Positions 31,697 to 53,647 of a DNA stretch of 64,000 nt are shown here, piece by piece. The translations under genes were made by a program, and so were the position numbers. Within the stretch, counting starts at the first letter, position 1. Every line of letters begins with the position of its first letter. Under the pieces are notes generated by a model. It was not told the DNA's origin. It did no database searches and saw only the letters and a list, made by a program, of their open reading frames with translations. Source of the DNA: Methanobrevibacter sp. (lineage in GTDB: Archaea > Methanobacteriota > Methanobacteria > Methanobacteriales > Methanobacteriaceae); the NCBI GenBank assembly GCA_017434555.1, contig JAFRFB010000006.1:1-64000 (forward strand), written 5' to 3'.

Positions 31697-31701
31697 AAAA
31701 A

Positions 31702-32387: not shown

Positions 32388-32403
32388 AACAATGGGTGAT
32401 GTT

Positions 32404-39668: not shown

Positions 39669-39730
39669 GATAAAGTTTTATTACTTGCTTTATCTAATAC
39701 TATTATATAATAAATATTTTTTTCTGTCAA
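39669..39730 (-). promoter_or_regulatory. Perfect promoter with GATAAAG inverted repeat (proximal)
   Basis: Minus strand TTGACA (39725-39730), 17 nt, TATAAT (39702-39707). The predicted transcript begins with CTTTATC/GATAAAG arms (39688-39694 and 39669-39675), a hairpin or operator just after the start site. Confidence 0.8.
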
Positions 39731-39778: not shown

Positions 39779-39839
39779 GATAAAGTGCTTTTTTTTCTTT
39801 ATCTACTAATATTATAATATAGATATCTTTAAAAGTCAA
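39779..39839 (-). promoter_or_regulatory. Second tandem promoter with the same repeat (distal)
   Basis: Minus strand TTGACT (39834-39839), 17 nt, TATAAT (39811-39816). Again followed by GATAAAG ... CTTTATC arms (39779-39785, 39797-39803) at the same place. The two promoters are an evident duplication. Confidence 0.8.
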
Positions 39840-39870: not shown

Positions 39871-39910
39871 ATGGCTTGTAAAGTATAGTTTTAAAATATT
39901 ATGATATAAT
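39871..39910 (+). promoter_or_regulatory. 40-nt element 1 (degenerate)
   Basis: ATGGCT block at 39871, a degenerate -35 block (AAGTATAG in place of GTGTATAG), TATGA before TATAAT (39905-39910). Spacing identical to the 12 others. It precedes about 250 nt of non-coding sequence, so may make an RNA. Confidence 0.65.
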
Positions 39911-40157
39911 AATAATGTATTAATTGATACATACACCAAAAAAACAAAAAAAGCAGAAACACCAAAAAAACAAGTGTTTAGCACTCTAAAATAATAACTG
40001 CTAATTATTAAATACTGCTAAACTTTAAAACTCCATAAATGCAACGGCTAAAAATGTGGGAGAATTAAAACGGCACGGCTTGTTTTGTGGGAGACTTGCA
40101 AGATTAAATGGCTTTTCTAAAATTGTGGTGGACTTTTCAAAAAAAGCAACAAAAAAA
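39911..40157 (+). other. Non-coding stretch between elements 1 and 2
   Basis: No gene or ribosome site. Contains short hairpins (TGTAT/ATACA, AAACAC/GTGTTT, AGTG/CACT) and recurring TGTGGGAG and CTCCATAAATGC words, also found at 40790-40870. Possible small RNA or leader; otherwise unknown. Confidence 0.45.
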
Positions 40158-40197
40158 ATGGCTAATCGTGTATAGTATCATAAATATATGATATAAT
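40158..40197 (+). promoter_or_regulatory. 40-nt element 2
   Basis: ATGGCTA, GTGTATAG, TATG-A-TATAAT in the fixed register. Drives the gene at 40226. Confidence 0.8.
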
Positions 40198-40225
40198 TAA
40201 AGCAGATGAAGGGAGAAGAAGAAAA

Positions 40226-40441
40226 ATGTATAATAAAGAAGTAAAAACTGAATTAATGAATATCTATAAAGATATTAAAAATGTTGACAATGAATTAGTA
40301 AATATTAAAATTGCTATTCATAATTTGGAGAAATTGGGACTTGATACAAAAGATTATTATAAATTACTTGATAATATTGGTATTGAGTTTAAGAAGTTCA
40401 AAGATTTTAATGAAGATTTTACAAAAGAAAAGTTAAAATAA
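40226..40441 (+). CDS. Small coiled-coil protein
   Basis: 71 aa. Lys/Asn/Asp-rich helix with IAIHNLEKLGLDTKDYY. Ribosome site AAGGGAG. First gene of the rightward early region, and ends 1 nt before element 3. Function unknown. Confidence 0.6.
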   Translation: MYNKEVKTELMNIYKDIKNVDNELVNIKIAIHNLEKLGLDTKDYYKLLDNIGIEFKKFKDFNEDFTKEKLK

Positions 40442-40442
40442 T

Positions 40443-40482
40443 ATGGCTAGAAGTGTATAAAATAAAAAATATATGATATAAT
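40443..40482 (+). promoter_or_regulatory. 40-nt element 3
   Basis: Same blocks and spacing. It starts right at the end of the previous gene and drives 40513. Confidence 0.8.
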
Positions 40483-40512
40483 AAAATTGTCAATGAAAGA
40501 GGAGATGATATT

Positions 40513-40779
40513 ATGACAATTATAACTAGAAATGAATATGATAATAAAGATTTTTCAAGATTATATGATAATTCTTGGAGTGGTGCTTTACAGACTTTAG
40601 ATGATATTGCAAATGCAGATTTAGAAGAAGAATTTATGGACTATTTAGAGGGTTTATTTGGAGATGAAGAAGTTGAAGATACAACTTTAAATGATTATAT
40701 TTGGTTTGAAAGAGATGAAATATATGAGGCTCTTGGACTAGATGAAAATGGAGAACTACCAAAAGAAGATGAAGAATAA
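40513..40779 (+). CDS. Small acidic protein
   Basis: 88 aa, very acidic (EEEFMDYLEGLFGDEEVEDTT, ends EDEE). GAGGAGATGATATT upstream. A DNA-mimic or regulatory protein is possible; nothing is recognised. Confidence 0.6.
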   Translation: MTIITRNEYDNKDFSRLYDNSWSGALQTLDDIANADLEEEFMDYLEGLFGDEEVEDTTLNDYIWFERDEIYEALGLDENGELPKEDEE

Positions 40780-40872
40780 AAAGAGTTTTGTGGAGTTCTT
40801 GGCTTAAAATAAAAGTCAAGTTCTCCATAAATGCTTAACTTGATTTTGTGGGAGTTTAAAACTCCAAAAAAG
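40780..40872 (+). other. Intergenic hairpins with CTCC/GGAG words
   Basis: Contains CTCCATAAATGC and TGTGGGAG, as in 40040-40070, plus GGAGT-TTAAA-ACTCC (40848-40866) and CAAGT...ACTTG stems. Repeated RNA-like module; function unknown. Confidence 0.45.
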
Positions 40873-41301
40873 ATGGAAAAAAATTGGAAGTGTAGGGAAA
40901 TGGAAAATAAATGGAAAGTAAATAGTCGTGGCTTATTAGATACGGCTCTAATGGAAAGCAATTTTGATGAACTGGACTATAATAATTCAAATGATATTGC
41001 TAACAATTCTAAAGGTATATTAAGGCTTTATGTTTACAATACAACGGAAAAAAGTTATAGATATGAATATTATTTTATTAAGGTTATCAAAAACAAGTAT
41101 TTTGGAAACTTATGTAATCATACTTTTAAAATGGAAGTTTTACAAGTATTAAAGGGAAATCACAGACAAGTGGGAGATATAATCACTAAAAACGGAAAAA
41201 TACTATATCATAATTATTTTGAAATAAGGAAAGCAAATGTATTTTGTAGAAATTGTAAACATAAACAAAAATATCAAAAAATTATGGCTATGAGTGTATA
41301 G
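40873..41301 (+). CDS. Unknown protein ending inside a promoter
   Basis: 142 aa from ATG 40873. C-terminal FCRNCKHK. The last codons (M-A-M-S-V-stop) are the ATGGCT...GTGTATAG part of element 4, so coding and promoter overlap. N-terminal start is not certain because no good ribosome site is visible. Confidence 0.5.
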   Translation: MEKNWKCREMENKWKVNSRGLLDTALMESNFDELDYNNSNDIANNSKGILRLYVYNTTEKSYRYEYYFIKVIKNKYFGNLCNHTFKMEVLQVLKGNHRQVGDIITKNGKILYHNYFEIRKANVFCRNCKHKQKYQKIMAMSV

Positions 41302-41323
41302 AATAGAAAAACAATGATATAAT
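41284..41323 (+). promoter_or_regulatory. 40-nt element 4
   Basis: ATGGCTA (41284), GTGTATAG, ATGA-TATAAT (41318-41323). Overlaps the upstream gene's 3' end and drives 41349. Confidence 0.8.
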
Positions 41324-41348
41324 GTTATTAGTTAAGGGAGATGAGACT

Positions 41349-41639
41349 ATGTTTGATTTGAATATATGTAAAGAAACAAACGACTTTTTAAAGGAAATAA
41401 GAAAAGAATTAAAGAATAAAGGCTATAATATGTCTATGAGTAGAACTAATAGATATATTGGGACAATGCACTTAAATTATGTAAATGAGTATTATACAAG
41501 ACCAAAAACAAATATTATGTTTGAAATTGAAAAAGATTTAGAAAATAATACAATGAGTGCAATGCTACATTTTAAAGATGAAAACGGAAAAAATGACTTT
41601 AAAAGAATAAGACTAGCAGATATTATAGATTTGGCTTAA
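41349..41639 (+). CDS. Small unknown protein
   Basis: 96 aa from ATG 41349; an earlier ATG lies upstream of the transcription start and is rejected. Arg/Lys-rich middle (MSMSRTNRYIGTMHLNY, abbreviated) may bind nucleic acid. AAGGGAG upstream. Unknown. Confidence 0.6.
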   Translation: MFDLNICKETNDFLKEIRKELKNKGYNMSMSRTNRYIGTMHLNYVNEYYTRPKTNIMFEIEKDLENNTMSAMLHFKDENGKNDFKRIRLADIIDLA

Positions 41640-41663
41640 AATGGAAAGTAGAGGGAAAATAAA

Positions 41664-41963
41664 ATGAGTATATACCAAAAAGGCAGTTATGAAAGAACAG
41701 ATGAAATTATTAAAGGCTTAGTAATATTTTGTGGAGTAGTCTTTATTCTTGGAGTAATTGCAATTACAATGGTAAATATTGAAAAGCAAACAGAAAAAGA
41801 AAAACAAGAGAAAGAACTTTATTGCAAGAGAATATTAATTGAAGAAGATTATATTGAAGTTGGTTGTGATGAAGTATTTAAAGAAGAAAAATGGTATATT
41901 GATTATATGGAATATATTGAAGATGAATATAAAAAGATAGGAGTTGAAAATAATGAAAATTAA
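41664..41963 (+). CDS. Single-span membrane protein
   Basis: 99 aa, with one membrane helix (IIKGLVIFCGVVFILGVIAI) at 16-35 and a cytoplasmic/charged tail with three Cys. Overlaps the start of the next gene. Unknown function. Confidence 0.6.
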   Translation: MSIYQKGSYERTDEIIKGLVIFCGVVFILGVIAITMVNIEKQTEKEKQEKELYCKRILIEEDYIEVGCDEVFKEEKWYIDYMEYIEDEYKKIGVENNEN

Positions 41964-42210
41964 AAAGATTTTGGAAATAAGTTTACAACATAGAGATGAA
42001 GTTGAAAAAGCAATTAAGTTTAATGCAGAAAATAACTATGAATATATTTTAGTAGATGATAATAATTTGATTAAATATGACACTTTGGCTTATTTATTGA
42101 GAGTTGGTTATCAAATGAATATTTATGCAGATATGGTGGAATTAAGACATAAAAACTATAATTTTGACAATGAAAAAGTAAAGGAAGATGAAGAAAATGG
42201 AAAAAAATAG
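41953..42210 (+). CDS. Unknown acidic protein
   Basis: 85 aa from ATG 41953, with AGGAG about 9 nt upstream. Helix-strand pattern (VEKAIKFNAENNYEYILVDDNN). Overlaps its neighbours by a few nucleotides. Unknown. Confidence 0.55.
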   Translation: MKIKKILEISLQHRDEVEKAIKFNAENNYEYILVDDNNLIKYDTLAYLLRVGYQMNIYADMVELRHKNYNFDNEKVKEDEENGKK

Positions 42211-42529
42211 ATTTTTAGATTATATAATGCAGTTTAAAAAAGATTTAGTTGAAACAGAAAAGACTATTGAAGAAGATTATGATTTTTTAGAGGGAAATTG
42301 TGGGACACTTGCTTATATCGGCTTAAATTATAGTTTTGAACTTGCTAATATTGGTTTTGAACTTGGTTATAGTAATTGGGTTTTTGATATAAGAGGAGAT
42401 TTTGAAAATATCAAAAAAGAGTTTAATTCATTAATTATAGAAAATGAAAAAATTGAAAAATTATTCAATGATAAAGAATTGGAAATTATATCAAAAAGAA
42501 TATTAAATTGCAAAGAAAATATGGCTTAA
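42197..42529 (+). CDS. Unknown protein ending in element 5
   Basis: 110 aa. Its stop (ATG GCT TAA) lies in the ATGGCT block of element 5. Acidic, Tyr/Gly-rich (GLNYSFELANIGFELGYSN). Start 42197 preferred over 42188 for spacing. Unknown. Confidence 0.6.
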   Translation: MEKNRFLDYIMQFKKDLVETEKTIEEDYDFLEGNCGTLAYIGLNYSFELANIGFELGYSNWVFDIRGDFENIKKEFNSLIIENEKIEKLFNDKELEIISKRILNCKENMA

Positions 42530-42560
42530 TGTGTATATAATGGAAAATAAATGATATAAT
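42521..42560 (+). promoter_or_regulatory. 40-nt element 5
   Basis: ATGGCTT variant at block 1, GTGTATA, ATGA-TATAAT (42555-42560). Drives 42598. Confidence 0.8.
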
Positions 42561-42597
42561 ATAATTGTAAAGAAAAAGGAAAGAGAGATGAAATCTT

Positions 42598-42792
42598 ATG
42601 AAATACAGATATGAAGTGAGATTTGAAGAAGAAAATGTTATAAAAACATTGAAATTAGAAGATAAAAATACATTAGACTATATCGTAAAAGAACTTGAAA
42701 ATAAAGGAATAATGTATGTAGTTATTAAAATTGTAGATGAAAGAGATAAAGACCATTTACAATGGAAATTACATTGTTTACTAGATTTTTAA
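42598..42792 (+). CDS. Small beta-type protein
   Basis: 64 aa. KYRYEVRFEEENVIKTLKL starts as a beta strand; the end HLQWKLHCLLDF is hydrophobic. Ribosome site AAAGGAAAGAGAG. A stand-alone domain, unknown. Confidence 0.6.
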   Translation: MKYRYEVRFEEENVIKTLKLEDKNTLDYIVKELENKGIMYVVIKIVDERDKDHLQWKLHCLLDF

Positions 42793-42799
42793 TAAAAAT

Positions 42800-42839
42800 A
42801 TGGTTAAATGTGTATAGAATAAAAAAGTTATGTTATAAT
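42800..42839 (+). promoter_or_regulatory. 40-nt element 6
   Basis: Block 1 is ATGGTTA (one change); GTGTATAG and TGT-TATAAT conserved. Drives 42864. Confidence 0.8.
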
Positions 42840-42863
42840 TAATATGTAAAGGGAGATGATATT

Positions 42864-43232
42864 ATGGAAATTAGAACATTAAAAATTGGAAAAAGAGTTT
42901 GGCAATTAGTAAATGAAAGTTGGAGTAATTCAAATGGTTGGGGACATAAAACAAATGTTATAAGAAACGGCTTTGATTTTGGAGAAACAAAAACAAAATA
43001 CTTAAATAGAACTTGGGAAAGTTATACATACCAAAGTAATATGTTTAAAGCAGTAAATAACATAAAAGCAGATGAACTTAACAGATTTATTGAAAGCTAT
43101 AAATATAAAAACAATGTTGATAGATTTAAAAAGGGAGAAAAAGAACAAGTTATCAAAGATTTTGAAAAAACAGAAATTGCTAGAGATTTAAATAAATTAT
43201 ACAAAGCAATAGAAACTAGACAATTCAGTTAA
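42864..43232 (+). CDS. Unknown Trp/Asn-rich protein
   Basis: 122 aa. Tyr/Trp-rich middle (WQLVNESWSNSNGWGHKTN) and Lys-rich helical end. AAGGGAGATGATATT upstream. Unknown. Confidence 0.6.
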   Translation: MEIRTLKIGKRVWQLVNESWSNSNGWGHKTNVIRNGFDFGETKTKYLNRTWESYTYQSNMFKAVNNIKADELNRFIESYKYKNNVDRFKKGEKEQVIKDFEKTEIARDLNKLYKAIETRQFS

Positions 43233-43244
43233 GGAGTGATTTTG

Positions 43245-43409
43245 ATGAGAACTTTACAATATAAGTTAAGATTTAGACAACTAGAAGAACAACATTTAGA
43301 CATTATTAAAGACTATTTAAATGGCAATATAGAGTGGTTAAAGGCTCACAATAGGTTGATACCATTTGGCATATATTTAGCAGAAAATGGAGACTTAATG
43401 GACTATTAA
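43245..43409 (+). CDS. Small 54-aa protein
   Basis: Start ATG 43245 after AAGGAGTGATTTTG. Helical (LRFRQLEEQHLDIIKDYLNG) then IEWLKAHNRLIPFGIYLAENGD. Continuous with its neighbours in the operon. Unknown. Confidence 0.65.
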   Translation: MRTLQYKLRFRQLEEQHLDIIKDYLNGNIEWLKAHNRLIPFGIYLAENGDLMDY

Positions 43410-43423
43410 GAGGAGATTTGATT

Positions 43424-43654
43424 ATGATTAATAAAGATATTGAAAAAATTGAAAATAATTATGATAATTTAGAAATATTAAATGCAGTTAAGTATTTAAT
43501 TGGAGTTGTTATCAATGATATTGAATATATGAACGACTTAACAGATGAAAAAGAAAATTATGATTTAGGGAATAACTATATCATTAAAAATGAAGATTTG
43601 GAAAGTCTTGTATCGGCAATGGAAACTTTACAAGATATAATAAATTATAATTAA
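43424..43654 (+). CDS. Small helical acidic protein
   Basis: 76 aa from ATG 43424 (GAGGAG upstream). Acidic helices (DIEKIENNYDNLEILNAV). Unknown function. Confidence 0.55.
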   Translation: MINKDIEKIENNYDNLEILNAVKYLIGVVINDIEYMNDLTDEKENYDLGNNYIIKNEDLESLVSAMETLQDIINYN

Positions 43655-43669
43655 TTAGGAGTGAAAATT

Positions 43670-44311
43670 ATGGAAAAATTATTTTTAGCAAAAATAAAAA
43701 ATGATGATGATAGAGATATCGTAAAATATATTGAGTTTAGTGGTTTTGAGTGTAATCATTATTTTGGTGGACTTCATATTCACGGGGCTTGTTTCTGTGG
43801 CTTTGAAAAAGAATTAAGAGATATTGTAGAAAACAATTTTGATGATTTAGAGACTATTCTAACTAAAGAAGAGTTTATGAAAATATTTGAACTTGATGAT
43901 GAATTAAATGAATTAGGCTATGGAATAGAAAAAGATAGTGATAAATATAAAAGAGGACTAGAAATCATTGAAGAATATAAAAACACTATTGAAAAAAGAT
44001 TATTAAGTGATGAAAATAAAAAACTATTTGAAAAAGTAATTGCAGATGAAAAAGAATATGTTAAAAATGAATATGATTTGACAGATGATGAAGTTGAAAC
44101 TATTTTTGAAAACTATGGGCTTGAATATCAAGATAGGGCTATTGTTGGCTATGTTTTTAGAGATTTTGATGAAATGGTTGAAGAAGAAAAGTTCAGTTTA
44201 GGTTATGACAAAGTACCATATTTTAATGATGAAGAGTTTGGAAATGATTTACTTGAAACTGGAAACTATTTACAATTAAGTAGTGGTAAAATTGTCTCAT
44301 ATTGTTATTAA
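43670..44311 (+). CDS. Acidic protein with ArdA-like C-terminus
   Basis: 213 aa, very acidic (pI low). The last ~60 residues (AIVGYVFRDFDEM ... YFNDEEFGNDLLETGNYLQL ... KIVSYCY) resemble the ending of ArdA antirestriction proteins (YxDYexYxRDLxxxG), which mimic DNA. The N-half has a HYFGGLHIHGACFC region. So a DNA-mimic antirestriction role is possible but unproven. Confidence 0.4.
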   Translation: MEKLFLAKIKNDDDRDIVKYIEFSGFECNHYFGGLHIHGACFCGFEKELRDIVENNFDDLETILTKEEFMKIFELDDELNELGYGIEKDSDKYKRGLEIIEEYKNTIEKRLLSDENKKLFEKVIADEKEYVKNEYDLTDDEVETIFENYGLEYQDRAIVGYVFRDFDEMVEEEKFSLGYDKVPYFNDEEFGNDLLETGNYLQLSSGKIVSYCY

Positions 44312-44323
44312 GGAGTGATTATA

Positions 44324-44584
44324 ATGGACAGAACAGATAGATTTGTTTATAGTTGTACTTATAGTGATTATTCTACCGATTTATGCGTTGGGAGTTTTGA
44401 TACAATTTGTAATTTAATAGAAAGACAACTAAACAAAGAAAATGATGATATGTTTAAATATAAATATATCAATGTAATTGATAGAAAAGAGGGTTGCTCT
44501 TTTGAAATCAATGATGATTATGGTATGGCAAGAACTTTATATAGTCAATTTATAGATAGTTATTATGGAGATGAAACTTTATAA
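44324..44584 (+). CDS. Small unknown protein
   Basis: 86 aa from ATG 44324 (AAGGAG upstream). Contains Cys-containing N-part (FVYSCTYSDYSTDLCVG) and a GMARTLYSQFIDSYYGDE end. Unknown. Confidence 0.55.
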   Translation: MDRTDRFVYSCTYSDYSTDLCVGSFDTICNLIERQLNKENDDMFKYKYINVIDRKEGCSFEINDDYGMARTLYSQFIDSYYGDETL

Positions 44585-44591
44585 AGTTTTT

Positions 44592-44631
44592 ATGGCTAAA
44601 AGTGTATAGAATACAAAATGTGTGTTATAAT
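44592..44631 (+). promoter_or_regulatory. 40-nt element 7
   Basis: ATGGCTA, GTGTATAG, TGT-TATAAT (44626-44631). Drives 44664. Confidence 0.8.
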
Positions 44632-44663
44632 ATATTTGTAAATGAGAAAAGGAGAAATGATTT

Positions 44664-45197
44664 ATGGGTTATTATAAAGCAAAAAACATAAAAATTGATA
44701 GAAAAAATAATAAAATTAGTGGAGTTTTAGCAGATAGCAACTGGAGAGATTTTGAAGATAAGTTTATCTATGAAAATATAGAAGATTTATACCCAAAATT
44801 AAATGTAATTGAAGATAAAATTGCTAATCTATACTATGACATTATTTGTGGAAATATTCATACAAGCAATGGAAAATATGAAGATTTAGTTTGTAGTTTT
44901 GATTATATTGGAAATGGAAACTTTACAGAAGAGTTTAGACAAGTTTATTCAAAAGAAAATAGACAAGATTATGAATTATACAATGTATTTAAAAAATATG
45001 AAGATGAAATCAATAAATATGCAGTTAAAAATTGTGTGTTAAGAAGAAAAGGAAGTAAAAGTTTATATATTGTTAGATTAAATAAAACAAGTGTATCAAT
45101 GAATTATGTTGATAAAGAAAAAGCAAAGAAGTTCAATGCAGAAAAAGTTAAAAGAAATAGTTGGTATATGGAAAACTATGATATTGAGTATATTTAA
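44664..45197 (+). CDS. Unknown conserved-type phage protein
   Basis: 177 aa beginning MGYYKAKNIKIDRKNNKISGV, a pattern I have seen in accessory phage proteins; the rest is Asn/Tyr/Lys-rich with ADSNWRDFEDKFIYENI. Function unknown. Confidence 0.6.
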   Translation: MGYYKAKNIKIDRKNNKISGVLADSNWRDFEDKFIYENIEDLYPKLNVIEDKIANLYYDIICGNIHTSNGKYEDLVCSFDYIGNGNFTEEFRQVYSKENRQDYELYNVFKKYEDEINKYAVKNCVLRRKGSKSLYIVRLNKTSVSMNYVDKEKAKKFNAEKVKRNSWYMENYDIEYI

Positions 45198-45214
45198 AAG
45201 GAGTTGAATAATAT

Positions 45215-45466
45215 ATGCTATATACAGATGAAGAAGAGAGAAACTACCCAAAAATTGATATAAAAGATTTAAAAAATAGTATGGGAGTTTGTCCTCATTG
45301 TAAAGAACAAGATTTAGAATATGGTTCTATACAATTAGAGGGAGAAAATGCTTACTTCCCCTATAAATGCAATAATTGTGGTTTAGAGGGAGAAGAGTGG
45401 TATTCTATGGAGTTTATAGGACATAATGTTTATGATAAAGAGGGAAACTTAATTGAGGTGGAATAA
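45215..45466 (+). CDS. Small zinc-ribbon protein
   Basis: 83 aa. CPHC and CNNC (positions ~23-26 and ~49-52) in a ribbon, then acidic tail. Probably binds zinc; partner unknown. It overlaps the next gene by 1 nt. Confidence 0.7.
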   Translation: MLYTDEEERNYPKIDIKDLKNSMGVCPHCKEQDLEYGSIQLEGENAYFPYKCNNCGLEGEEWYSMEFIGHNVYDKEGNLIEVE

Positions 45467-45693
45467 TGGAAGATTTGAATAAAGTTGAGTTATTACAAGA
45501 GATTATAGGTTCTAGTAAAGAGTTCAAGTTTGAAACTGATGAAATAATGAATATTAGAAAGTATTATGATACTAAACAAAGTATAAATATTAATTTTGTT
45601 GCTCTAATGGAAATTATGTTTGAAAAACTTGATGATGAAGATATAAACAGAATATTATTAACAGATGAAGAAGTTGAAAATTTAGAATATTAA
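45466..45693 (+). CDS. Small acidic protein
   Basis: 75 aa, Glu/Asp-rich helical protein with LMEIMFEKLDDEDINRILL. Coupled to the zinc-ribbon gene and ends 1 nt before element 8. Unknown. Confidence 0.6.
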   Translation: MEDLNKVELLQEIIGSSKEFKFETDEIMNIRKYYDTKQSININFVALMEIMFEKLDDEDINRILLTDEEVENLEY

Positions 45694-45694
45694 T

Positions 45695-45734
45695 ATGGCT
45701 AATTGTGTATAGCTTTGAATATTCGTGATATAAT
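45695..45734 (+). promoter_or_regulatory. 40-nt element 8
   Basis: ATGGCTA, TGTGTATAG, TGA-TATAAT (45729-45734). Its transcript begins at about 45741 with the long hairpin. Confidence 0.8.
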
Positions 45735-45747
45735 ATTTATATAAAGT

Positions 45748-45842
45748 CTTTTATAGGCTTTATAGAGGGTATTAAGTAGGTCATCTCCAAAAAAGTTGAT
45801 TATATCACTACCTATTTGATATTCTCTATAAGGTCTATAAAG
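45748..45842 (+). ncRNA. 33-bp G-U-rich hairpin at a transcript start
   Basis: 5' arm 45748-45781 pairs with 3' arm 45810-45842: 33 base pairs, one bulged U, six G-U pairs, 28-nt loop. All wobbles are G-U in the plus-strand RNA (A-C mismatches on the other strand). The stem begins ~7 nt after the predicted start of element 8's transcript and ends before the ribosome site of 45869. Confidence 0.8.
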
Positions 45843-45868
45843 GGAAAACAAAGTGAGGAGAGATTAAA

Positions 45869-46099
45869 ATGTTAGATAAGAAAACAAAGGAAATAAGATT
45901 ATATAAAAATGCAGTTGTGTTTAATAAAAATCACAATGCAAGTTATGTTATGAAAAAATATGTTGAAATTGAGTTCTTCAATGGAGATATTATTAAATTA
46001 AGTATTGAGGGAAAAGCAGATATCACAGATAGTGATTATTTAGAAATCAAAGAAAAGGGAAAACTTGTTAAAACATTATTTAGAAATGAATTAGCATAG
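45869..46099 (+). CDS. Small beta-rich protein behind the hairpin
   Basis: 76 aa. KKTKEIRLYKNAVVFNKNH, then GDIIKLSIEGKADI, short beta hairpins. Its leader holds the 33-bp hairpin, so its translation or mRNA stability may be regulated. Ribosome site GAGGAGAG. Confidence 0.55.
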   Translation: MLDKKTKEIRLYKNAVVFNKNHNASYVMKKYVEIEFFNGDIIKLSIEGKADITDSDYLEIKEKGKLVKTLFRNELA

Positions 46100-46111
46100 G
46101 AGTTGAGATTT

Positions 46112-46564
46112 ATGGAGAGTAAATATTATAAATGGAATAAAAGAGGTAGCAGAATAATTATTGATAGTGGTTATAAGACTTTTGACAATTATATTGATTG
46201 TATCAGTAGAGGAAATGTAGTAGGTAGAGGACAAATAAGTTTTTATATTCGTCCATATAATGAAATCACTTGCAATGGAAAAACTTTTGAAAAAGGACAT
46301 TTAAGAAATTATGATTTATCAATGTTTAGTGGTTTAGATTATGAAGTTAGAAAATATGTTGAAAGCATAACTACTAATCAAAGTTGTATTTTATATAAGT
46401 TTTATACATATAAATACGGAATTGAAAATCAAGTTGGCTACATTGTGGAACAAAATGGCAATTTTAAGATATTCAATAATAGTTATTACTCTAAAAATAA
46501 AAAACAAAAATGTTTGGAGTTTATAACAAAAATCTTACAAGAAGAATATAAAATATATGGCTAA
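46112..46564 (+). CDS. Unknown Tyr/Asn-rich protein
   Basis: 150 aa from ATG 46112. Contains CISRGNVVGRGQISFYIRPYNE and NQVGYIVEQNGNFKIF. Its 3' end overlaps block 1 of element 9. No family recognised. Confidence 0.6.
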   Translation: MESKYYKWNKRGSRIIIDSGYKTFDNYIDCISRGNVVGRGQISFYIRPYNEITCNGKTFEKGHLRNYDLSMFSGLDYEVRKYVESITTNQSCILYKFYTYKYGIENQVGYIVEQNGNFKIFNNSYYSKNKKQKCLEFITKILQEEYKIYG

Positions 46565-46596
46565 TCGTGTATATAGTTGTATATATATGATATAAT
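46557..46596 (+). promoter_or_regulatory. 40-nt element 9
   Basis: ATGGCTA, GTGTATA, ATGA-TATAAT (46591-46596). Drives 46627. Confidence 0.8.
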
Positions 46597-46626
46597 GTAT
46601 ATAGTTAAAGGAGATGAATTAATATT

Positions 46627-47112
46627 ATGACTTTTAAAGATGAAATATTGCAGACTTTATTCGGTGGTGGAACGGCAGATTATGAAATGCTAGAAAAATG
46701 TAATTATGCTTTTGAAGATATACTTGATTATATCAAAAGTTTTACTTCAGTTGATGAAATGGAGTTCAATGATATTTTATTAGGTGCTATTGATTTATAC
46801 AGAAGTAATATTGAAGAAAAAATTGAAGAGAAAAAGAAATCACTAGAAGAAAATATTAAATATTTAGAAAATAAAATGAGTTGTTGTGCTAGTGATAAAT
46901 ATGATGAAATGGAACTTTTAGATAATCAAAAAGATTTAGAAAAACTAGAAGAATTGTCTCCATTTGATGATATTGAATATAATACAAATTATTTAGATAC
47001 GCAAATATGGGTTTTAGATGATGATATAAGGGCTATATACAAAGAATTGCTTGCAGATGAAATAAGCAAAGAAAATGATGAAATTGGCTTTGTGGAGTTA
47101 GATTTAGATTAA
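46627..47112 (+). CDS. Coiled-coil acidic protein
   Basis: 161 aa. Residues ~60-110 are a Lys/Glu coiled coil (EEKIEEKKKSLEENIKYLE), the rest acidic. AAGGAGATGAATTAATATT upstream. Unknown. Confidence 0.6.
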   Translation: MTFKDEILQTLFGGGTADYEMLEKCNYAFEDILDYIKSFTSVDEMEFNDILLGAIDLYRSNIEEKIEEKKKSLEENIKYLENKMSCCASDKYDEMELLDNQKDLEKLEELSPFDDIEYNTNYLDTQIWVLDDDIRAIYKELLADEISKENDEIGFVELDLD

Positions 47113-47113
47113 T

Positions 47114-47272
47114 ATGGAGTATTTAGGAGATTATAAACTTACTTTACTTAATATTGATAAGAATATTATTTTTGAGAAGTATATTAAAAATGAATACTTC
47201 TTGAGAAAGTTTAGAAATAAATGCAGATATTCCAAAAAAATAAAAATATTATGTGAAGAAAAAATGTATTAA
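47114..47272 (+). CDS. Small basic protein
   Basis: 52 aa from ATG 47114, 1 nt after the previous stop. Lys/Arg/Tyr-rich (FRNKCRYSKKIKI), with two Cys. Ends before element 10. Could bind nucleic acid. Confidence 0.5.
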   Translation: MEYLGDYKLTLLNIDKNIIFEKYIKNEYFLRKFRNKCRYSKKIKILCEEKMY

Positions 47273-47275
47273 AAT

Positions 47276-47315
47276 ATGGCTAGTTGTGTATAGAATAAGA
47301 AATCTATGTTATAAT
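47276..47315 (+). promoter_or_regulatory. 40-nt element 10
   Basis: ATGGCTA, TGTGTATAG, TATGT-TATAAT (47310-47315). Start site falls after the earlier ATGs of the next gene. Confidence 0.8.
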
Positions 47316-47348
47316 GTATATGTAAACAAAAGAAGAGGAGATGATATT

Positions 47349-47897
47349 TTGGAAACATTACAAGAAAAACTAAATAGGCTTGTCAATGAAAGTGTTAAAG
47401 AATTAAAGGAGATAGGGTTAGGAGATAATCTAAACACGAATATGACTTTTGAAATTAATTATCGTGCAAAACAAAGATTAGGTCAATGTTGCAATAAGTG
47501 TGATATTAATATTTCAAGTTGGTTATTAGAAGTTGGAAGTGATAAAGATATCAAAAACACTATAATTCACGAAATATTACATACTTTCAAAGATACAATA
47601 GGACATAAAGCAAAATGGCAATACTATGCTAGATATGTAAATAATAGAACAGAATATAATATTACTAGAACAACAAGTATTAATAATATCTATGCTAGGG
47701 CTAATATTCAAAGACCAACAAAACATATTCACTACAAATGGGAAATAACTTGTACTAAATGTGGTGCAGTATGGAAGAAACAAAAGATGACTACAAAGGT
47801 ATTAAATGGCTTTACAGAGGGTAATAGAATACATAGAAAATGTGGTGGAACAGATTTTAGAATAGTAGATTTAGATAATTGTGAGGTAATTTGGTAA
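47349..47897 (+). CDS. SprT-like zinc metallopeptidase
   Basis: 182 aa from TTG 47349 (GAGGAGATGATATT upstream; the promoter excludes the earlier start). Contains HEILH (74-78) and GHKAKW (H86), the zinc-binding HExxH...H, and a C-terminal zinc ribbon CTKCGAVWKK ... KCGGTD. Matches SprT-type proteases that remove DNA-protein crosslinks. Role in phage is likely DNA repair or protein processing. Confidence 0.88.
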   Translation: METLQEKLNRLVNESVKELKEIGLGDNLNTNMTFEINYRAKQRLGQCCNKCDINISSWLLEVGSDKDIKNTIIHEILHTFKDTIGHKAKWQYYARYVNNRTEYNITRTTSINNIYARANIQRPTKHIHYKWEITCTKCGAVWKKQKMTTKVLNGFTEGNRIHRKCGGTDFRIVDLDNCEVIW

Positions 47898-47898
47898 T

Positions 47899-48141
47899 AT
47901 GAAAACTAAAGAAAAATTAGAATATATTGATAGACAATTAAATGAAAGATTAAATAAGAGGTTAAAAAATAGAAGTTTTAAAGCAGAGTTTAAAAACAAT
48001 GGTGCTAATAACTATTGTTTAGTGATGAAAGATAAAACATATAAGTTTAATACTTATGATGATATGATTAGTTGTTTAGATTTTATTGATGATATGTTTG
48101 AAAATGCAATAGTTGAAATTGAAAAGGAGAAAAAGAAGTAA
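47899..48141 (+). CDS. Small basic protein
   Basis: 80 aa. N-terminus has many Lys/Arg/Asn (RLNKRLKNRSFKAEFK) and a helical acidic end. Starts 1 nt after the SprT stop. Unknown. Confidence 0.55.
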   Translation: MKTKEKLEYIDRQLNERLNKRLKNRSFKAEFKNNGANNYCLVMKDKTYKFNTYDDMISCLDFIDDMFENAIVEIEKEKKK

Positions 48142-48142
48142 T

Positions 48143-48652
48143 ATGAATAAAGTATATTTAAAAAGATTTATGAAAGATATTCACAATGATAAAAAAGCAG
48201 AACAAGAGAATAAATATATTAAATATGATGATAGATATTTGATTAGTAATAATTGTTCTGTGGTACTATTAAATAGTGATTATGGAGTGCTTACAGAAAA
48301 CAACGGAAAGATAAAAGATACAATTAAAAATATCTATGAAGATTTTAGAGATAGATTTTGTTTAAATGCAGTTGATATAACTGATGAAATCAATAATTTT
48401 AATGCAAGTGAAGATGAAGAAGAAAAAGATTTTAAGTTCAAAAAAGAATATGCTTGTGATATTAAAGAAGAAAAAGAAATCATTAATTTTGGAATAGATT
48501 TAAAGAAATTAGAAACTATCAAAAAAATGATTAAAGCAGATAAAATTGAAATCCATACAAAGTTCGGTTTTAATAGTTATATGTATGTGATAGAGATTAA
48601 GAATACAAAAACAAATGAAATTGGTTATTTACTACCTATTAAAATATATTAA
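48143..48652 (+). CDS. Unknown Lys/Glu-rich protein
   Basis: 169 aa from ATG 48143, after AAAAGGAG. Charged, with a strand-like end (YMYVIEIKNTKTNEIGYLLPI). Unknown. Confidence 0.55.
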   Translation: MNKVYLKRFMKDIHNDKKAEQENKYIKYDDRYLISNNCSVVLLNSDYGVLTENNGKIKDTIKNIYEDFRDRFCLNAVDITDEINNFNASEDEEEKDFKFKKEYACDIKEEKEIINFGIDLKKLETIKKMIKADKIEIHTKFGFNSYMYVIEIKNTKTNEIGYLLPIKIY

Positions 48653-48664
48653 GGAGTGTATATT

Positions 48665-48895
48665 ATGAGTTGCTATAATAAGATTAAGAAATCATTAGAA
48701 AAAGGCAGTGGGGTTAAGGTTGTTAAATTACAAGATAATAAAATAACTATATCAAGAGACAATAAATTGCTTACAACTTATGATTTAAAGTTTGTAGAGT
48801 ATGGCAACAATTTAAAGGGTTTTCTTGATTATTGGGAAACTAAATTAAAAATACCAAAGAAAAAAGAAAAGAAAAAAATGGCTAAAAGTGTATAG
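48665..48895 (+). CDS. Small basic protein ending in a promoter
   Basis: 76 aa from ATG 48665. Basic tail KKKEKKKMAKSV: the last codons ATG GCT AAA AGT GTA TAG are element 11's blocks. Possibly binds RNA or DNA. Unknown. Confidence 0.55.
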   Translation: MSCYNKIKKSLEKGSGVKVVKLQDNKITISRDNKLLTTYDLKFVEYGNNLKGFLDYWETKLKIPKKKEKKKMAKSV

Positions 48896-48917
48896 AATAG
48901 AAAACTTATGCTATAAT
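48878..48917 (+). promoter_or_regulatory. 40-nt element 11
   Basis: ATGGCTA, GTGTATAG, ATGC-TATAAT (48912-48917). Overlaps the upstream coding end and drives 48945. Confidence 0.8.
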
Positions 48918-48944
48918 ATAATTGTAAAGAAAAGAGGAGAGATT

Positions 48945-49220
48945 ATGGAAAAGAAGTTTTTAGATATTTACAATGAACTTGGAGATGAAAGAATTGAAGA
49001 GTTATATGTGTTTAGTTGTTTAAAAGCAAGTGGTTTTAATGATGAATTAGGACAAAAACTAATACCATTGTTAAAAGATTTATGGCTAGATGATACGGCT
49101 TGTCGTTGTATATCACAATTAAGTGATAATTTATATGCAGTATATGAAGAAAATGGAAAAGAAGATTTTTTAGAATTAACTTCTAAAGAATTATTAGAAT
49201 TAGATGAGTTTAGTTTATAA
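48945..49220 (+). CDS. Small acidic protein
   Basis: 91 aa. Helical acidic protein (EKKFLDIYNELGDERIEEL) with a Cys pair (FSCLKASG, DTACRCIS). Start 48945 after GAGGAGAGATT; the promoter rules out an earlier ATG. Unknown. Confidence 0.6.
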   Translation: MEKKFLDIYNELGDERIEELYVFSCLKASGFNDELGQKLIPLLKDLWLDDTACRCISQLSDNLYAVYEENGKEDFLELTSKELLELDEFSL

Positions 49221-49232
49221 GGAGTGATTTAA

Positions 49233-49865
49233 ATGGGACAAAGATTAAATATTGAAATTAAAAGAAGAAAAGATAATAAAGTATTGGCAAATAGTTATTA
49301 TCATTGGAGTGCTTATACAAGTTCAAGTTTACATTTAGCAGAAGAAATTATTGAAAACATTTATGAAGTTATTAGAAAAGAAAAAGTTAGTGATGAAATT
49401 AAGGCTATTCAATTATTACAAACAACTGGAGCAGGTCTTATGGAAGATGAATATAATAAATTAAATGAAGAAGATAAAAAATATTGTAGTCTTGCAACAA
49501 ATAGAAATCTTGGCTTAATATCTTTCACAGATGAGGGTATGGAAGAAACAAGAAGTTGGGAAGAGGGAAGATTAACAATAGATATTGATTTTGATGATAA
49601 AGACTATGACTTCTATGGTAATAAAAACTTGGTTGATTTTGAAGTATATTTTCAAATTGATGAAGAGGAAATCAATGAAAGTTATGAAGAAGAAATAAAG
49701 AGTGGTAAATTAGATTTAAATAATCTTACAAAGTTTGAGTTTAGTTTAGAAGAAATGACATTAAATGATATTAGATTATTTATGAGTAAATTAGATGAAA
49801 TTGAAAACAACAATGGTTTATTTAGAGTTAAAGGAACAGATTTAATATATCAAATTATTTATTAA
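49233..49865 (+). CDS. Unknown protein with a YxHWxxY motif
   Basis: 210 aa. N-terminal ANSYYHWSAYTSSSLHL resembles the GSYNHWDSYPSGLG segment of the protein at 57557; the two are probably paralogues. The rest is acidic. Proteins with YNHWDSYP are known in phages but without a firm function. Confidence 0.55.
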   Translation: MGQRLNIEIKRRKDNKVLANSYYHWSAYTSSSLHLAEEIIENIYEVIRKEKVSDEIKAIQLLQTTGAGLMEDEYNKLNEEDKKYCSLATNRNLGLISFTDEGMEETRSWEEGRLTIDIDFDDKDYDFYGNKNLVDFEVYFQIDEEEINESYEEEIKSGKLDLNNLTKFEFSLEEMTLNDIRLFMSKLDEIENNNGLFRVKGTDLIYQIIY

Positions 49866-49877
49866 GGAGATGAGATT

Positions 49878-50639
49878 ATGAATTATCAAGAATTAGTTGA
49901 TAAATGTAAAAAGGCTTATGCAGATAAAGATTTAAAACTTGCTTGGCAATTATGGGAAGAATTAGGTAAAATAATTGACAAGTTAGATGAAATTGATATC
50001 AAAGATGATGAAAAAAGAAATGCAATTTTTGAAGAATATCATAGTTATACAAAACAATTTACAGATGAAGAAGTTTTTGGAATAACAGATTATGGTAAAC
50101 AAAAAGCATATAGGGAAATGGAGTTTGAAAGAACTAGGGGCATTTTAGATAAAAGTATAAGTCTTTATGACTTGACTAAAGATGATAAAATGAAATCTCT
50201 TGATGACTTTTTGAACTTCTATGAGTGGTGTATTCTAAAAAGTGATGATAAAGAAAATATGTATATGATTTATGATTTACAAACAAACGAAATTAAAGAT
50301 TATGATGAAAACAATGGGAATAAGACATTAGATGAAGTAATTGATAGAGTTGTAGGTCGTGCAGTTGATTATGAAACAAATGAAAGTGAAAATGATGAAT
50401 ATATTGATGATGAAACATTTGAATATTTTGAAAACTTATATGATATTGCAAAAAAATATACTATTGGAGATTATGATTTGTGGTTAAAACAATTTAGACA
50501 ATTTATTGATGACTTTAAAGAAGTTGCAAAAGATAAAAAGATTTGTCTAGTTTGTGGGAGAGAAAAAGAAGATTATCAAAGTGCTTATTGTGATAAATGT
50601 TGGGAAGAAGAGAAAAAAAGAATAGGGGTTGAAGATTAA
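49878..50639 (+). CDS. Unknown protein with C-terminal zinc knuckle
   Basis: 253 aa, acidic. The C-terminal ~30 residues contain CLVCGREKEDY ... CDKCWEEE, a four-Cys zinc finger with short spacing. The N-terminus is helical. Overlaps no neighbour but shares a TAAATG junction with the next gene. Confidence 0.6.
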   Translation: MNYQELVDKCKKAYADKDLKLAWQLWEELGKIIDKLDEIDIKDDEKRNAIFEEYHSYTKQFTDEEVFGITDYGKQKAYREMEFERTRGILDKSISLYDLTKDDKMKSLDDFLNFYEWCILKSDDKENMYMIYDLQTNEIKDYDENNGNKTLDEVIDRVVGRAVDYETNESENDEYIDDETFEYFENLYDIAKKYTIGDYDLWLKQFRQFIDDFKEVAKDKKICLVCGREKEDYQSAYCDKCWEEEKKRIGVED

Positions 50640-50813
50640 ATGAAAAAAGAAAACATTGAAGTTTGTATTTGTAAAATAAAATACCCAAAAAACGAAACTA
50701 TTTATTGGACTTTCTCCTCTTTTACAAATGCTATTAAAGAAGTTTTAAAAGCAATAGAAGATAAAAGAATAAATGAAGAAGATATTAGATATATAGAAAG
50801 AGTAAGTGAATAA
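50640..50813 (+). CDS. Small 57-aa protein
   Basis: ATG 50640 immediately follows the previous stop. Has three Cys (EVCICKIKYP), a strand (ETIYWTFSSFTNA) and an acidic helical end. Real by position; unknown. Confidence 0.6.
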   Translation: MKKENIEVCICKIKYPKNETIYWTFSSFTNAIKEVLKAIEDKRINEEDIRYIERVSE

Positions 50814-50814
50814 T

Positions 50815-50988
50815 ATGAAATCACTACAAGAATTAGTAAAAGAAAATGGAGATAAAATAGTTTATTTCCAAAATTGTAAAGCAGATAAAAAATATATGAG
50901 TGTATTTAATTATAGTGAAAAATATGGTGGTACTTTTGATAGCTTTAGATATTATAATGATTATGTTATAGAGTTAGGAGATGAATAG
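50815..50988 (+). CDS. Small unknown protein
   Basis: 57 aa from ATG 50815, chosen since an earlier in-frame ATG would overlap the previous gene. Tyr-rich. Unknown. Confidence 0.5.
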   Translation: MKSLQELVKENGDKIVYFQNCKADKKYMSVFNYSEKYGGTFDSFRYYNDYVIELGDE

Positions 50989-50989
50989 T

Positions 50990-51439
50990 ATGGAAGATAC
51001 TAGAAAATATTTTGATTATGAACTTGCTTATGAGGGCTATTTAAAAGCAAAAGAACTTTTTGATAAGGGTGGTCTTGAAGAACTTGTAAATAGTGCAGAT
51101 TTTGACATAAGTGGTGGTGGAGTAGATTATATTGGCAGTATAGAACAATGGGCTAGTAATGGTTATATTCCTATTGTGGCTAGTGCTTATAATATTACTT
51201 TATATGTAATAGATAAAAACTTTGATACTGATACAGAAGAAAAAGACTGGTATATTAGTGGAGAAGTTGATATGATTAGTTATAGTTATGGAGAAGATAA
51301 TCTATATATAAACAACAAAGGTGCTATTGAAGATAGAATAGGTCGTTTATTAGATTATGCAAAGGAAAATAATTATACTATTGGAGATTATGAAAAAGAA
51401 CTAGAAAGTTTAGAAAAAGTTTTAGAAAAACTACAATAA
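50990..51439 (+). CDS. Unknown Gly/Tyr-rich acidic protein
   Basis: 149 aa from ATG 50990. Has ISGGGVDYIGSIEQWASNGYIPIV and a Glu/Lys helical end. No family recognised. Confidence 0.55.
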   Translation: MEDTRKYFDYELAYEGYLKAKELFDKGGLEELVNSADFDISGGGVDYIGSIEQWASNGYIPIVASAYNITLYVIDKNFDTDTEEKDWYISGEVDMISYSYGEDNLYINNKGAIEDRIGRLLDYAKENNYTIGDYEKELESLEKVLEKLQ

Positions 51440-51441
51440 AT

Positions 51442-51481
51442 ATGGCTATTAGTGTATATAATAGTAAATGTATGTTATAAT
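51442..51481 (+). promoter_or_regulatory. 40-nt element 12
   Basis: ATGGCTA, GTGTATA, TATGT-TATAAT (51476-51481). Drives 51508. Confidence 0.8.
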
Positions 51482-51507
51482 ATATATAACAAAGGAGAGA
51501 TGAGATT

Positions 51508-51819
51508 ATGAAATATATCTTATATGAAAGTCATATAGATGAAACTAGAATTATGAAAAACTTAAGATTTAATACTAAAATAATTGGTCTATATGATGAA
51601 AAGAAACTTGCAATAAATGAACTCCAAAAATATGTTGATGATATTATGTTAAACTTAACAGATGAGCATAATTGGTATATCAAGGAGTTTGATATTAAAC
51701 TTGCTAAAGAAGAAAATCAAAACATAGTTGCAGTTTATGAAGTATTTAATGAAGAAATTGATAATTGTGGAGAAGTTTTCTATGTAATATTAGAACAAAT
51801 AGGAGTGGAAGTGATTTAA
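51508..51819 (+). CDS. Small unknown protein
   Basis: 103 aa, mixed alpha/beta with KYILYESHIDETRIMKNL. Followed at once by the next gene (ATG at 51820). Unknown. Confidence 0.55.
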   Translation: MKYILYESHIDETRIMKNLRFNTKIIGLYDEKKLAINELQKYVDDIMLNLTDEHNWYIKEFDIKLAKEENQNIVAVYEVFNEEIDNCGEVFYVILEQIGVEVI

Positions 51820-52176
51820 ATGGAAGTATTAACTAGAAGAAAATATAGTGAAGAAGATATGAAAATTCTTAAAAAAGTTTATATAGATTATAAACAATTT
51901 GAAAGAAAATTAAATAGAAATGCTTTTTGTAATAAGAGTATTCAAGACATTTATAATTTTGTATACCCTTATGCAGATAGAATTACTAATGAAGATTTTA
52001 AACTTGGTTGTTTTGATTTTGAATATAAGAATAATTGTATCTTAACTATTGATGATTATAGACATAAAGGTTTATTTGAATTAAGTGATTTATTAGAAGT
52101 TTTAGATGATAATGGAACTATTTGTACTATTACATTTGATGAATTAGAAAAGTTGGTGTTAGGTTATGAAGAATAA
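51820..52176 (+). CDS. Small unknown protein
   Basis: 118 aa. Lys/Asn-rich N-half, with several Cys (NAFCNKS, LGCFDF, ICTIT). Overlaps the next gene by 11 nt. Unknown. Confidence 0.55.
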   Translation: MEVLTRRKYSEEDMKILKKVYIDYKQFERKLNRNAFCNKSIQDIYNFVYPYADRITNEDFKLGCFDFEYKNNCILTIDDYRHKGLFELSDLLEVLDDNGTICTITFDELEKLVLGYEE

Positions 52177-52453
52177 GTTTTATATGATAGAGATTTTATG
52201 CAAAGATACTGATAATACTATATACAATGATAATTTTAGAATAGGCTATCGTACTTTTGAAAAGGCAAAAGAAGTGCTTGATGAATTAATTAATCAAGAG
52301 TTTGAAGATTTAAAATCAAATGGTGGAGATTATTATATTCAAAATTATGATGAAAGCAAAGAAGAAAGATACGAAAGAGAAATACATATTGAAACAGAAG
52401 ATTATGAAGATATGCTAACAAGATATTCTATTGTTGTAGTTGAGGTGGAATAA
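52166..52453 (+). CDS. Small unknown acidic protein
   Basis: 95 aa. Strand then helix (FYMIEILCKDTDN...FEKAKEVLDELINQEFEDL), like a ferredoxin-like fold. Unknown. Confidence 0.55.
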   Translation: MKNKFYMIEILCKDTDNTIYNDNFRIGYRTFEKAKEVLDELINQEFEDLKSNGGDYYIQNYDESKEERYEREIHIETEDYEDMLTRYSIVVVEVE

Positions 52454-52455
52454 TA

Positions 52456-52713
52456 ATGGAAATTGTATTTAAAAACTATGATTTAAGAAACGATTTAGAT
52501 TTATTAAATAAAACACTTGCAAGAGCAAGTAAAGATAGATTTGAATTAAGACAAGACACTAGAAACAGATATTATTTGTATGATTATGACTTTAAAGAAG
52601 TTAGTAGAAGTAAAGATGAGATAAAAGATATTATTGAGTGTATGAACTTACAAGATTATACTACAAAGGAGAACTATTTAAGAATAGAAAATAAATTGAA
52701 AGAGGTGTTTTAA
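52456..52713 (+). CDS. Small unknown protein
   Basis: 85 aa, Arg/Asp/Tyr-rich (ASKDRFELRQDTRNRYYLYDYD). Possibly nucleic-acid binding. Unknown. Confidence 0.55.
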   Translation: MEIVFKNYDLRNDLDLLNKTLARASKDRFELRQDTRNRYYLYDYDFKEVSRSKDEIKDIIECMNLQDYTTKENYLRIENKLKEVF

Positions 52714-53253
52714 ATGACTGATAAAGAGTTATTAGCAGAATTAAAGGTTTGTTATGAATATATTAACGATATTAAAGAAAATCACGAAAATAGATTTGAT
52801 GAAACTGAAGAAAAAATGTTGTGGAATATAGAAAATCAATTAGATGAACTATATCAAAAAGTTTATAATAATGCTATTCAAAGTGAATATAAAGATGAAT
52901 TAAAGGTAGACACAGACTTTGAAGATGAGGAACTTATTATTGGAAGTGATATTTATACAGATTATAATTTTGTTAAAAAAGGAACTTTTGATTTTAAAGA
53001 AGATATTTATGGAACTAGAGAATATGCTACTTGTGGAGATATTGATAAATATTGGTATTGTGAAGAATTAGGGCATAGATACAACGATTATGATTATAAC
53101 ATTATTGCAAAAGGCTTTATGGGTGCTTTAGATGAAATGGCACAAAAAGAAGATAATTTTGATTATTTTGATAAGGCTTGTGATTTATTAGACACTAGCA
53201 ATTCAAATGTATTAGATTTTTTAGATGAATTTGGAAGTGATAATGATGAATAA
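52714..53253 (+). CDS. Unknown acidic protein
   Basis: 179 aa. Strongly acidic with DKYWYCEELGHRYNDYDYNII; C-terminal DFLDEFGSDNDE. DNA-mimic-like composition, unproven. Overlaps the next gene slightly. Confidence 0.55.
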   Translation: MTDKELLAELKVCYEYINDIKENHENRFDETEEKMLWNIENQLDELYQKVYNNAIQSEYKDELKVDTDFEDEELIIGSDIYTDYNFVKKGTFDFKEDIYGTREYATCGDIDKYWYCEELGHRYNDYDYNIIAKGFMGALDEMAQKEDNFDYFDKACDLLDTSNSNVLDFLDEFGSDNDE

Positions 53254-53602
53254 TTTAAAAGAATTAGTTGAAAAGATAATTCAATATACTAGAACTTGGT
53301 CTATTACAGAAACAGAGTGGTACTGGAATATTGAGTGTATTAGAAAAAGTGATGATAGAAGAAACGAACATATTACTTGGGAAGAATTTGAAAAAGTTAT
53401 TAGAGAAGAAACTTTATATGATTTAGTTTACAGAAATGGTGCTTGTTTAAGGCAACAAATGGAAAATGATTATGAAGTATATGAAGAAGATGATGAGTTT
53501 TGGAAGAAATCTAGTGTTGAACTTGAATTAGCAGTTAGGGAAGTCATTGCAGATTTTAAAGTTAGCAGATTAGATAATAATTGTAAAACATATTTTATTT
53601 AA
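53246..53602 (+). CDS. Unknown acidic protein
   Basis: 118 aa from ATG 53246 (53243 also possible). Contains WSITETEWYWNIECIRKSDD and an acidic middle. Ends before element 13. Unknown. Confidence 0.5.
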   Translation: MNNLKELVEKIIQYTRTWSITETEWYWNIECIRKSDDRRNEHITWEEFEKVIREETLYDLVYRNGACLRQQMENDYEVYEEDDEFWKKSSVELELAVREVIADFKVSRLDNNCKTYFI

Positions 53603-53607
53603 AAAAT

Positions 53608-53647
53608 ATGGCTTATAGTGTATACAATAAGAAAATTATGGTATAAT
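53608..53647 (+). promoter_or_regulatory. 40-nt element 13
   Basis: ATGGCTT variant, GTGTATA, ATGG-TATAAT (53642-53647). Drives 53676 and the long operon to the right; the last such element found in the window. Confidence 0.8.

Follow-up and report, generated by a model that had tools for sequence, protein, structure and literature searches.

A uniform class of phage promoters carrying a two-part box in place of the -35 hexamer, with lineage-specific box alleles in related YonO-type phages

Introduction

Thirteen elements of 40 nucleotides (nt), each ending in TATAAT, are repeated between positions 39871 and 53647 of the window, as we call the whole 64,000-nt stretch of DNA analysed here, and they raise the question of which RNA polymerase reads them and what takes the place of the -35 hexamer. 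The window belongs to a contig of 77,623 bp and 27% guanine plus cytosine (G000:C87, hereafter C87) from a phage of a gut bacterium, which encodes a portal protein (phrog_2739) and a YonO-type RNA polymerase. The elements are a real and unusually uniform class of promoters of an already known kind, that is, phage-box promoters without a -35.

Results

Architecture of the promoter elements

All thirteen forty-mers reported in the initial annotation, with their rigid spacing, were found on the + strand exactly where they had been placed (Table 1), with 0-3 mismatches to ATGGCTA-N3-GTGTATA-N14-TGN-TATAAT. This pattern had zero matches in 100 dinucleotide shuffles, and the remainder of the 3.15-Mb assembly, outside C87, contained one match to the full element, with 3 mismatches. 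When the position-weight scan proposed by that annotation was carried out with leave-one-out (held-out) scoring, 12 sites reached 35-49 bits and the site at 39871 reached 25.8 bits, the best non-site score in the 77.6-kb contig being about 4.5 bits. The box was never found at comparable strength without a -10 in C87.

The layout consists of box 1, 10 bp, box 2 on the -35, a 17-bp spacer and TGnTATAAT, with identical spacing across all 13 sites, and the two-part box spans about -46 to -30. TATAAT was retained as the σ70/σA -10 in 13/13 elements and was always immediately preceded by TGn, forming an extended -10. GTGTATA had been assigned to the -35, and TGTATA does occupy the hexamer position with a 17-bp spacer in the 12 strong sites, but the site at 39871 reads AAGTATA. 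Similarly, ATGGCTA, thought to be kept throughout, is present at most sites, but is replaced by ATGGCTT at 42521, 53608 and 39871 and by ATGGTTA at 42800. Conservation extended beyond the blocks first noted, to gAATA at offsets 18-22, A at offsets 25-27 and T/R at offsets 46/47. The last pair, a T followed by a purine in nearly all sites, resembles -1/+1, suggesting that transcription starts 7 nt past TATAAT. Offsets 8-10, 22-24, 28, 29 and 34 were free, differing among the sites of a single phage.

Each of the 12 strong elements precedes a small early gene with a ribosome-binding site and a start codon, the distance from the end of the -10 to the start codon being 24-37 nt at 11 sites and 134 nt at 45695. 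The leader at the latter site (45735-45868, before the open reading frame (ORF) at 45869-46099) forms a near-perfect hairpin of ~35 bp (-44 kcal/mol) that had no match in Rfam, and it is possibly a regulatory or double-stranded RNA leader. The site at 39871 was treated as degenerate because its box is poor (ATGGCTT...AAGTATA, with a box-only score of 13 bits versus 29-36 for the others), no ORF lies behind it and its counterpart is missing in the near-identical phage g148.

Box alleles in related phages

Phage g148 (contig G148:C9 of a sheep-colon metagenome-assembled genome (MAG)) has 129,311 bp with a 141-bp terminal overlap, indicating a circular molecule; most of C87 matches it at 91-98% identity, and it has the same 12 strong elements. 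Other boxes were found in front of the extended -10 in three further phages: GGTGCArAAAAGTGnAATAT...TGnTATAAT in g7 (IMG/VR, 132,932 bp, YonO 85% identical), TTGAnAATTT-TAGGCATAT...TGnTAT(A/T)AT in g151 (108,674 bp, YonO 69% identical) and GTG(C/T)..-GTGAAYATTTT...TGnTATAAT in g150 (contig C5 of a rabbit MAG). In every lineage the second box begins 24 bases 5' of TATAAT. Sites with the lineage's own box coupled to a -10 numbered 12 in C87, 9 in g7, 7 in g150 and 5 in g151, and cross-matches of a foreign box plus -10 amounted to a single stray at most, with none in C87. A scan of 139 genomes of the family showed repeats of the full element on C87 alone, and the other genomes gave single matches with 2-3 mismatches, as did a reversed control.

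The SprT-like gene (47349-47897) is preceded by an element with the lineage's own box in all four lineages. At four promoters that are orthologous between C87 and g7, the extended -10 was 82-100% identical and the box 33-58%, with an upstream flank 63-82% identical in three pairs and 37% in the fourth; judging from these alignments, the orthologous promoters have switched their box in place and kept the -10. Since the sites are uniform within a lineage and change jointly across lineages, a trans-acting factor with altered specificity would be expected. The identical geometry with four internally uniform boxes in four lineages is strong evidence for a phage factor that co-evolves with the box, and the concerted divergence of the box allows a strong inference that this factor is a DNA-binding protein encoded by the phage.

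Ordinary TTGACA promoters in the same genomes

A strict search of C87 for TTGAC[A/T]-N15-19-TATAAT recovered three promoters, at 39839, 39730 and 32349 on the - strand; the class of TTGACA promoters mentioned in the initial annotation does exist, and of the five counted there this search recovered three in the contig. Because TTGACA promoters with TGn are found in the same genomes, the loss of the -35 is specific to the box class. TTGAC was the sole strongly enriched -35 in more distant YonO phages.

Between the gene at 32392 and the NT5C-YonO operon, at 32290-32390, σA promoters stand back to back, with their -35s making up TTGTCAA-N8-TTGACAA, and they are kept in the relatives examined. In g148, elsewhere about 95% identical, another sequence takes the place of the region 38416-40004, which covers the leftward genes 38555-39635; the strong elements are unaffected.

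Table 1. Promoter elements, ordinary promoters and genes discussed in the text (positions of the window).
Feature	Position	Strand	Remarks
Weak or degenerate element	39871..39910	+	No ORF directly 3'; absent from g148
Promoter element, ORF 40226-40441	40158..40197	+	Orthologous g7 promoter at 27097
Promoter element, ORF 40513-40779	40443..40482	+	g7 ortholog at 26811: upstream flank 82% identical, box 58%
Promoter element, ORF 41349-41639	41284..41323	+	
Promoter element, ORF 42598-42792	42521..42560	+	
Promoter element, ORF 42864-43232	42800..42839	+	
Promoter element, ORF 44664-45197	44592..44631	+	
Promoter element, 134-nt hairpin leader, ORF 45869-46099	45695..45734	+	
Promoter element, ORF 46627-47112	46557..46596	+	
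Promoter element, SprT-like ORF 47349-47897	47276..47315	+	Same gene has own-allele element in four of four lineages
Promoter element, ORF 48945-49220	48878..48917	+	
Promoter element, ORF 51508-51819	51442..51481	+	Orthologous elements: g7 13681, g150 C5 50146
Promoter element, ORF 53676-54113	53608..53647	+	
Canonical σA promoter, TTGACA-N17-TATAAT with TGn, NT5C-YonO operon	32321..32349	-	Present in relatives examined
Canonical σA promoter (TTGACA), leftward genes 39635-38555	39702..39730	-	
Canonical σA promoter (TTGACT), leftward genes	39811..39839	-	
YonO-type DNA-dependent RNA polymerase	28934..31705	-	Pfam RdRP 1.1e-20; tblastn to SPβ yonO
Candidate regulator, fast-evolving zinc-ligand protein	32392..33114	+	Divergent from YonO operon
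Candidate regulator, I-HmuI-like HNH plus C-terminal helix-turn-helix (HTH) protein	58690..59169	+	Same locus in all four lineages
Tyrosine recombinase, R-K-HxxR-H-Y intact	59660..60667	+	Only recombinase seen

Candidate factors

The boxes are the same in C87 and g148 and different in g7, so the factor must be common to C87 and g148 and differ from that of g7. The genes at 56315-56908 and 57557-58093 were ruled out as the specificity determinant, being absent from g148 despite its same boxes, and so were the genes in 65088-68264, which are 97-99% identical to g7 despite its other boxes. The proteins encoded at 32392-33114 and 58690-59169 are candidates. The former has conserved cysteines and is 52% identical to its g7 counterpart and 29% to that of g151, while YonO is 85 and 69% identical, respectively. 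Its label as a BRO-N protein is weak (Pfam 7.8e-5, below the cut-off, and absent in the g7 and L011 orthologues), and its AlphaFold model, with a predicted local distance difference test score of 87, had no confident fold match in Foldseek.

In the HTH part of the 58690-59169 protein, C87 and g148 differ at 10 codons by synonymous changes and at 0 codons by a change of amino acid, and the corresponding counts for the remainder of the gene are 20 and 35 (Fisher p = 1.7e-4, for a comparison chosen post hoc); long runs without amino-acid changes occur in other genes too. Foldseek matched the predicted fold of this protein to that of I-HmuI, a homing endonuclease, with a probability of 1.00. This match makes the protein a weaker candidate regulator, and it may simply be a homing endonuclease.

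Phage context

Homologues of SPβ YonV, YonJ, YonG, YonF and YomU were found beside YonO in C87, and the late block YonV-YonO-YonJ-YonG-YonF is common to this phage and SPβ. Judged by these homologies, the C87 phage belongs, though distantly, to the YonO phages related to SPβ. A tRNA search found none, and neither megablast against phages nor pattern scans of viral contigs for the C87 box gave anything useful. Positions 64661-68374 of C87 are 94-97% identical to g7 while the remaining contig is g148-like, a sign of recent recombination.

A 1.1-kb insertion that holds a GIY-YIG endonuclease ORF (24302-24952) divides the gene for YonF (terminase large subunit), on the - strand, into the parts 25268-25879 and 23034-24182, the g148 gene being intact; the insertion is probably an intron with a homing endonuclease. 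An ORF at 28174-28947 (- strand), which weakly matches a MerR-like HTH and, at its C terminus, a zinc ribbon, overlaps the 3' end of the YonO gene and adjoins YonO in relatives too, and its product is possibly a partner of the YonO polymerase. The g148 contig C9 carries a gene for a Thg1-like tRNAHis guanylyltransferase at 101947-102759 (L069:1947-2759; Pfam 1.2e-31).

Discussion

Proposed mechanism

Given the intact extended -10 and the fact that no phage sigma was found, the polymerase that reads the elements is most likely the host σA enzyme, and given that the -35 is swapped at a fixed register for a lineage-specific box, an activator at -46 to -30 is the simplest reading. The elements would then be early or middle phage promoters used by the host RNA polymerase with its housekeeping σA, where σ region 2 and the TGn contact would engage the extended -10 and a phage-encoded DNA-binding activator, sitting on the two-part box, would stand in for σ region 4 at TTGACA. 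The activator itself would be made first, from the TTGACA promoters of the phage, and would then boost transcription across a dozen operons, which consist of small early genes. We consider the chances to be evenly balanced that an activator replaces the -35 contact of the host σA RNA polymerase at these promoters; the binding of a protein to the box, the phage origin of this protein and its action as an activator are all three things that we infer from sequence comparison.

Several observations weigh against activation. For the regulator there are candidates only, and a 10-bp direct repeat inside the box, when tested in all boxes, was clear in g7 only. A promoter with an extended -10 can be active in the absence of a -35 (PMC4390567), so that a perfect TATAAT with an extended -10 could work alone and activation is not required by the sequence. 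Finally, the operators of heteroimmune repressors fit the concerted divergence equally well.

YonO was rejected as the polymerase in question, its use of the elements being unlikely, since their -10 is of the σA type and they are located in the early region, outside the late region; in SPβ, transcription by YonO begins at a single site and covers the late genes as one operon (PMC5467207).

Comparison with known systems

The middle promoters of T4, which are used through sigma appropriation by MotA/AsiA, keep the host -10, about half of them with TGn, and at many prereplicative genes they have a phage-specific box where the -35 would be (PMC2988021). The C87 class likewise keeps the host -10 and has a phage-specific box in place of the -35 at many promoters. 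The MotA box, (a/t)(a/t)TGCTT(t/c)a, is a single 9-bp motif centred at -30 (PMC2988021), whereas the C87 boxes, ATGGCTA and GTGTATA, are the two parts of a longer site and do not match the MotA consensus; in addition, the C87 phage is of Firmicutes type and its box alleles differ among relatives. Neither MotA nor AsiA was found in Pfam and PHROG scans of about 70 phage proteins, which were not exhaustive.

The class II activator sites of the λ CII and PhoB type have direct half-sites about 10-11 bp apart that overlap the -35. A ~10-bp direct repeat would be a point of likeness, supported in g7 only, but the sequence, the number of promoters and the host are different and no CII- or PhoB-like protein was identified. 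The Pm promoter of Mu has a -10 and no -35, as the C87 elements do, and the Mor site takes the place of the -35 element (PMC4390567). However, Mor binds a 16-bp inverted repeat centred at -43.5, whereas the C87 class comprises about a dozen promoters with TGn and with no evident dyad, none being visible by eye in the box consensus of any of the four lineages, and the character of a direct repeat is seen in g7 only.

With more reserve, we propose that the phages with a YonO polymerase may have a new system, in which a protein unrelated to MotA, Mor or sigma would appropriate the σA RNA polymerase at the extended -10 via a rapidly diversifying -46/-30 box, giving each lineage a private middle-promoter code before the switch to YonO.

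Alternative explanations

In the main rival explanation, the elements are intrinsically strong extended -10 promoters, and the box over the -35 serves as operator for a phage repressor that controls lysogeny or timing, the alleles marking immunity groups. This explanation is possible, although on the unlikely side. The operators of related temperate phages co-diverge with their repressors, which counts in its favour, as does the dispensability of the -35 in extended -10 promoters (PMC4390567). In SPβ, a distant relative, repeated promoter elements are bound by the repressor MrpR (PMC10516654). We re-derived the 15-bp motif of these elements (SPBRE) from ten promoters identified by chromatin affinity precipitation sequencing as A(C/T)AAA(T/A)AATATGTATA. 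Both SPBRE and the C87 element are repeated at early genes, in distantly related phages that share the YonO late block, but SPBRE lies in the spacer/-10 region, between a near-consensus TAGACA -35 and the -10, and the C87 element lies further upstream, at -46 to -30, has another sequence and lacks a -35. The two were therefore not considered to be the same, the more so as phmmer against SPβ gave no homologue of MrpR or AimR. Neither an HTH_3 (CI-type) repressor nor a serine recombinase or integrase was found on the phage contigs, and the sole tyrosine recombinase keeps all its catalytic residues, for which reason it was rejected as a catalytically dead repressor of the MrpR type. One related contig (g148) is circular, so that lysogeny would be an assumption. 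Furthermore, a pure operator need not remove the -35 at every site, nor be placed so rigidly.

That the elements are duplicated promoter cassettes which copying keeps similar, and that no protein is dedicated to binding them, is improbable. The promoters do sit in small-gene arrays that are rearranged between relatives, as cassettes might, but comparison of the phages shows greater change in the box than in the -10 and, for three of four pairs, than in the upstream flank, and the sites of one phage vary at the free offsets, as recent copies would not.

That the entire 40-bp element is read by an alternative sigma factor, of the phage or of the host, is very improbable. The canonical 17-bp spacing of the -35-like and -10 blocks would suit it, and PMBT24, a distantly related YonO phage, has an annotated sigma factor gene; however, the -10 follows the σA consensus and carries TGn, searches of G148 contig C9, g7 and g151 for Sigma70_r2 and Sigma70_r4 gave no match, and the conserved bases of the box reach -46, past a -35 hexamer. 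Of the phage-specific regulon with its own activator or sigma-like protein put forward in the initial annotation, the regulon is supported, with a phage box replacing the -35 in four lineages by four boxes, and the sigma-like protein is not. Least probable of all is a host transcription factor that recognises the box, because the box, even if it touches a host-type promoter at its -35 position, is repeated in the full element on C87 alone among the family genomes and differs between related phages.

Implications

YonO-type phages use an unusual single-chain RNA polymerase for their late genes, and the order of transcription before YonO is little known outside SPβ. The four box alleles in four related phages are a natural experiment in the co-evolution of a transcription factor and its sites, and they open a route to the factor, which must be orthologous among these phages, co-diverge with the box and be common to phages with identical boxes. 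Once found, the factor would provide orthogonal pairs of promoter and regulator for use in gut Firmicutes.

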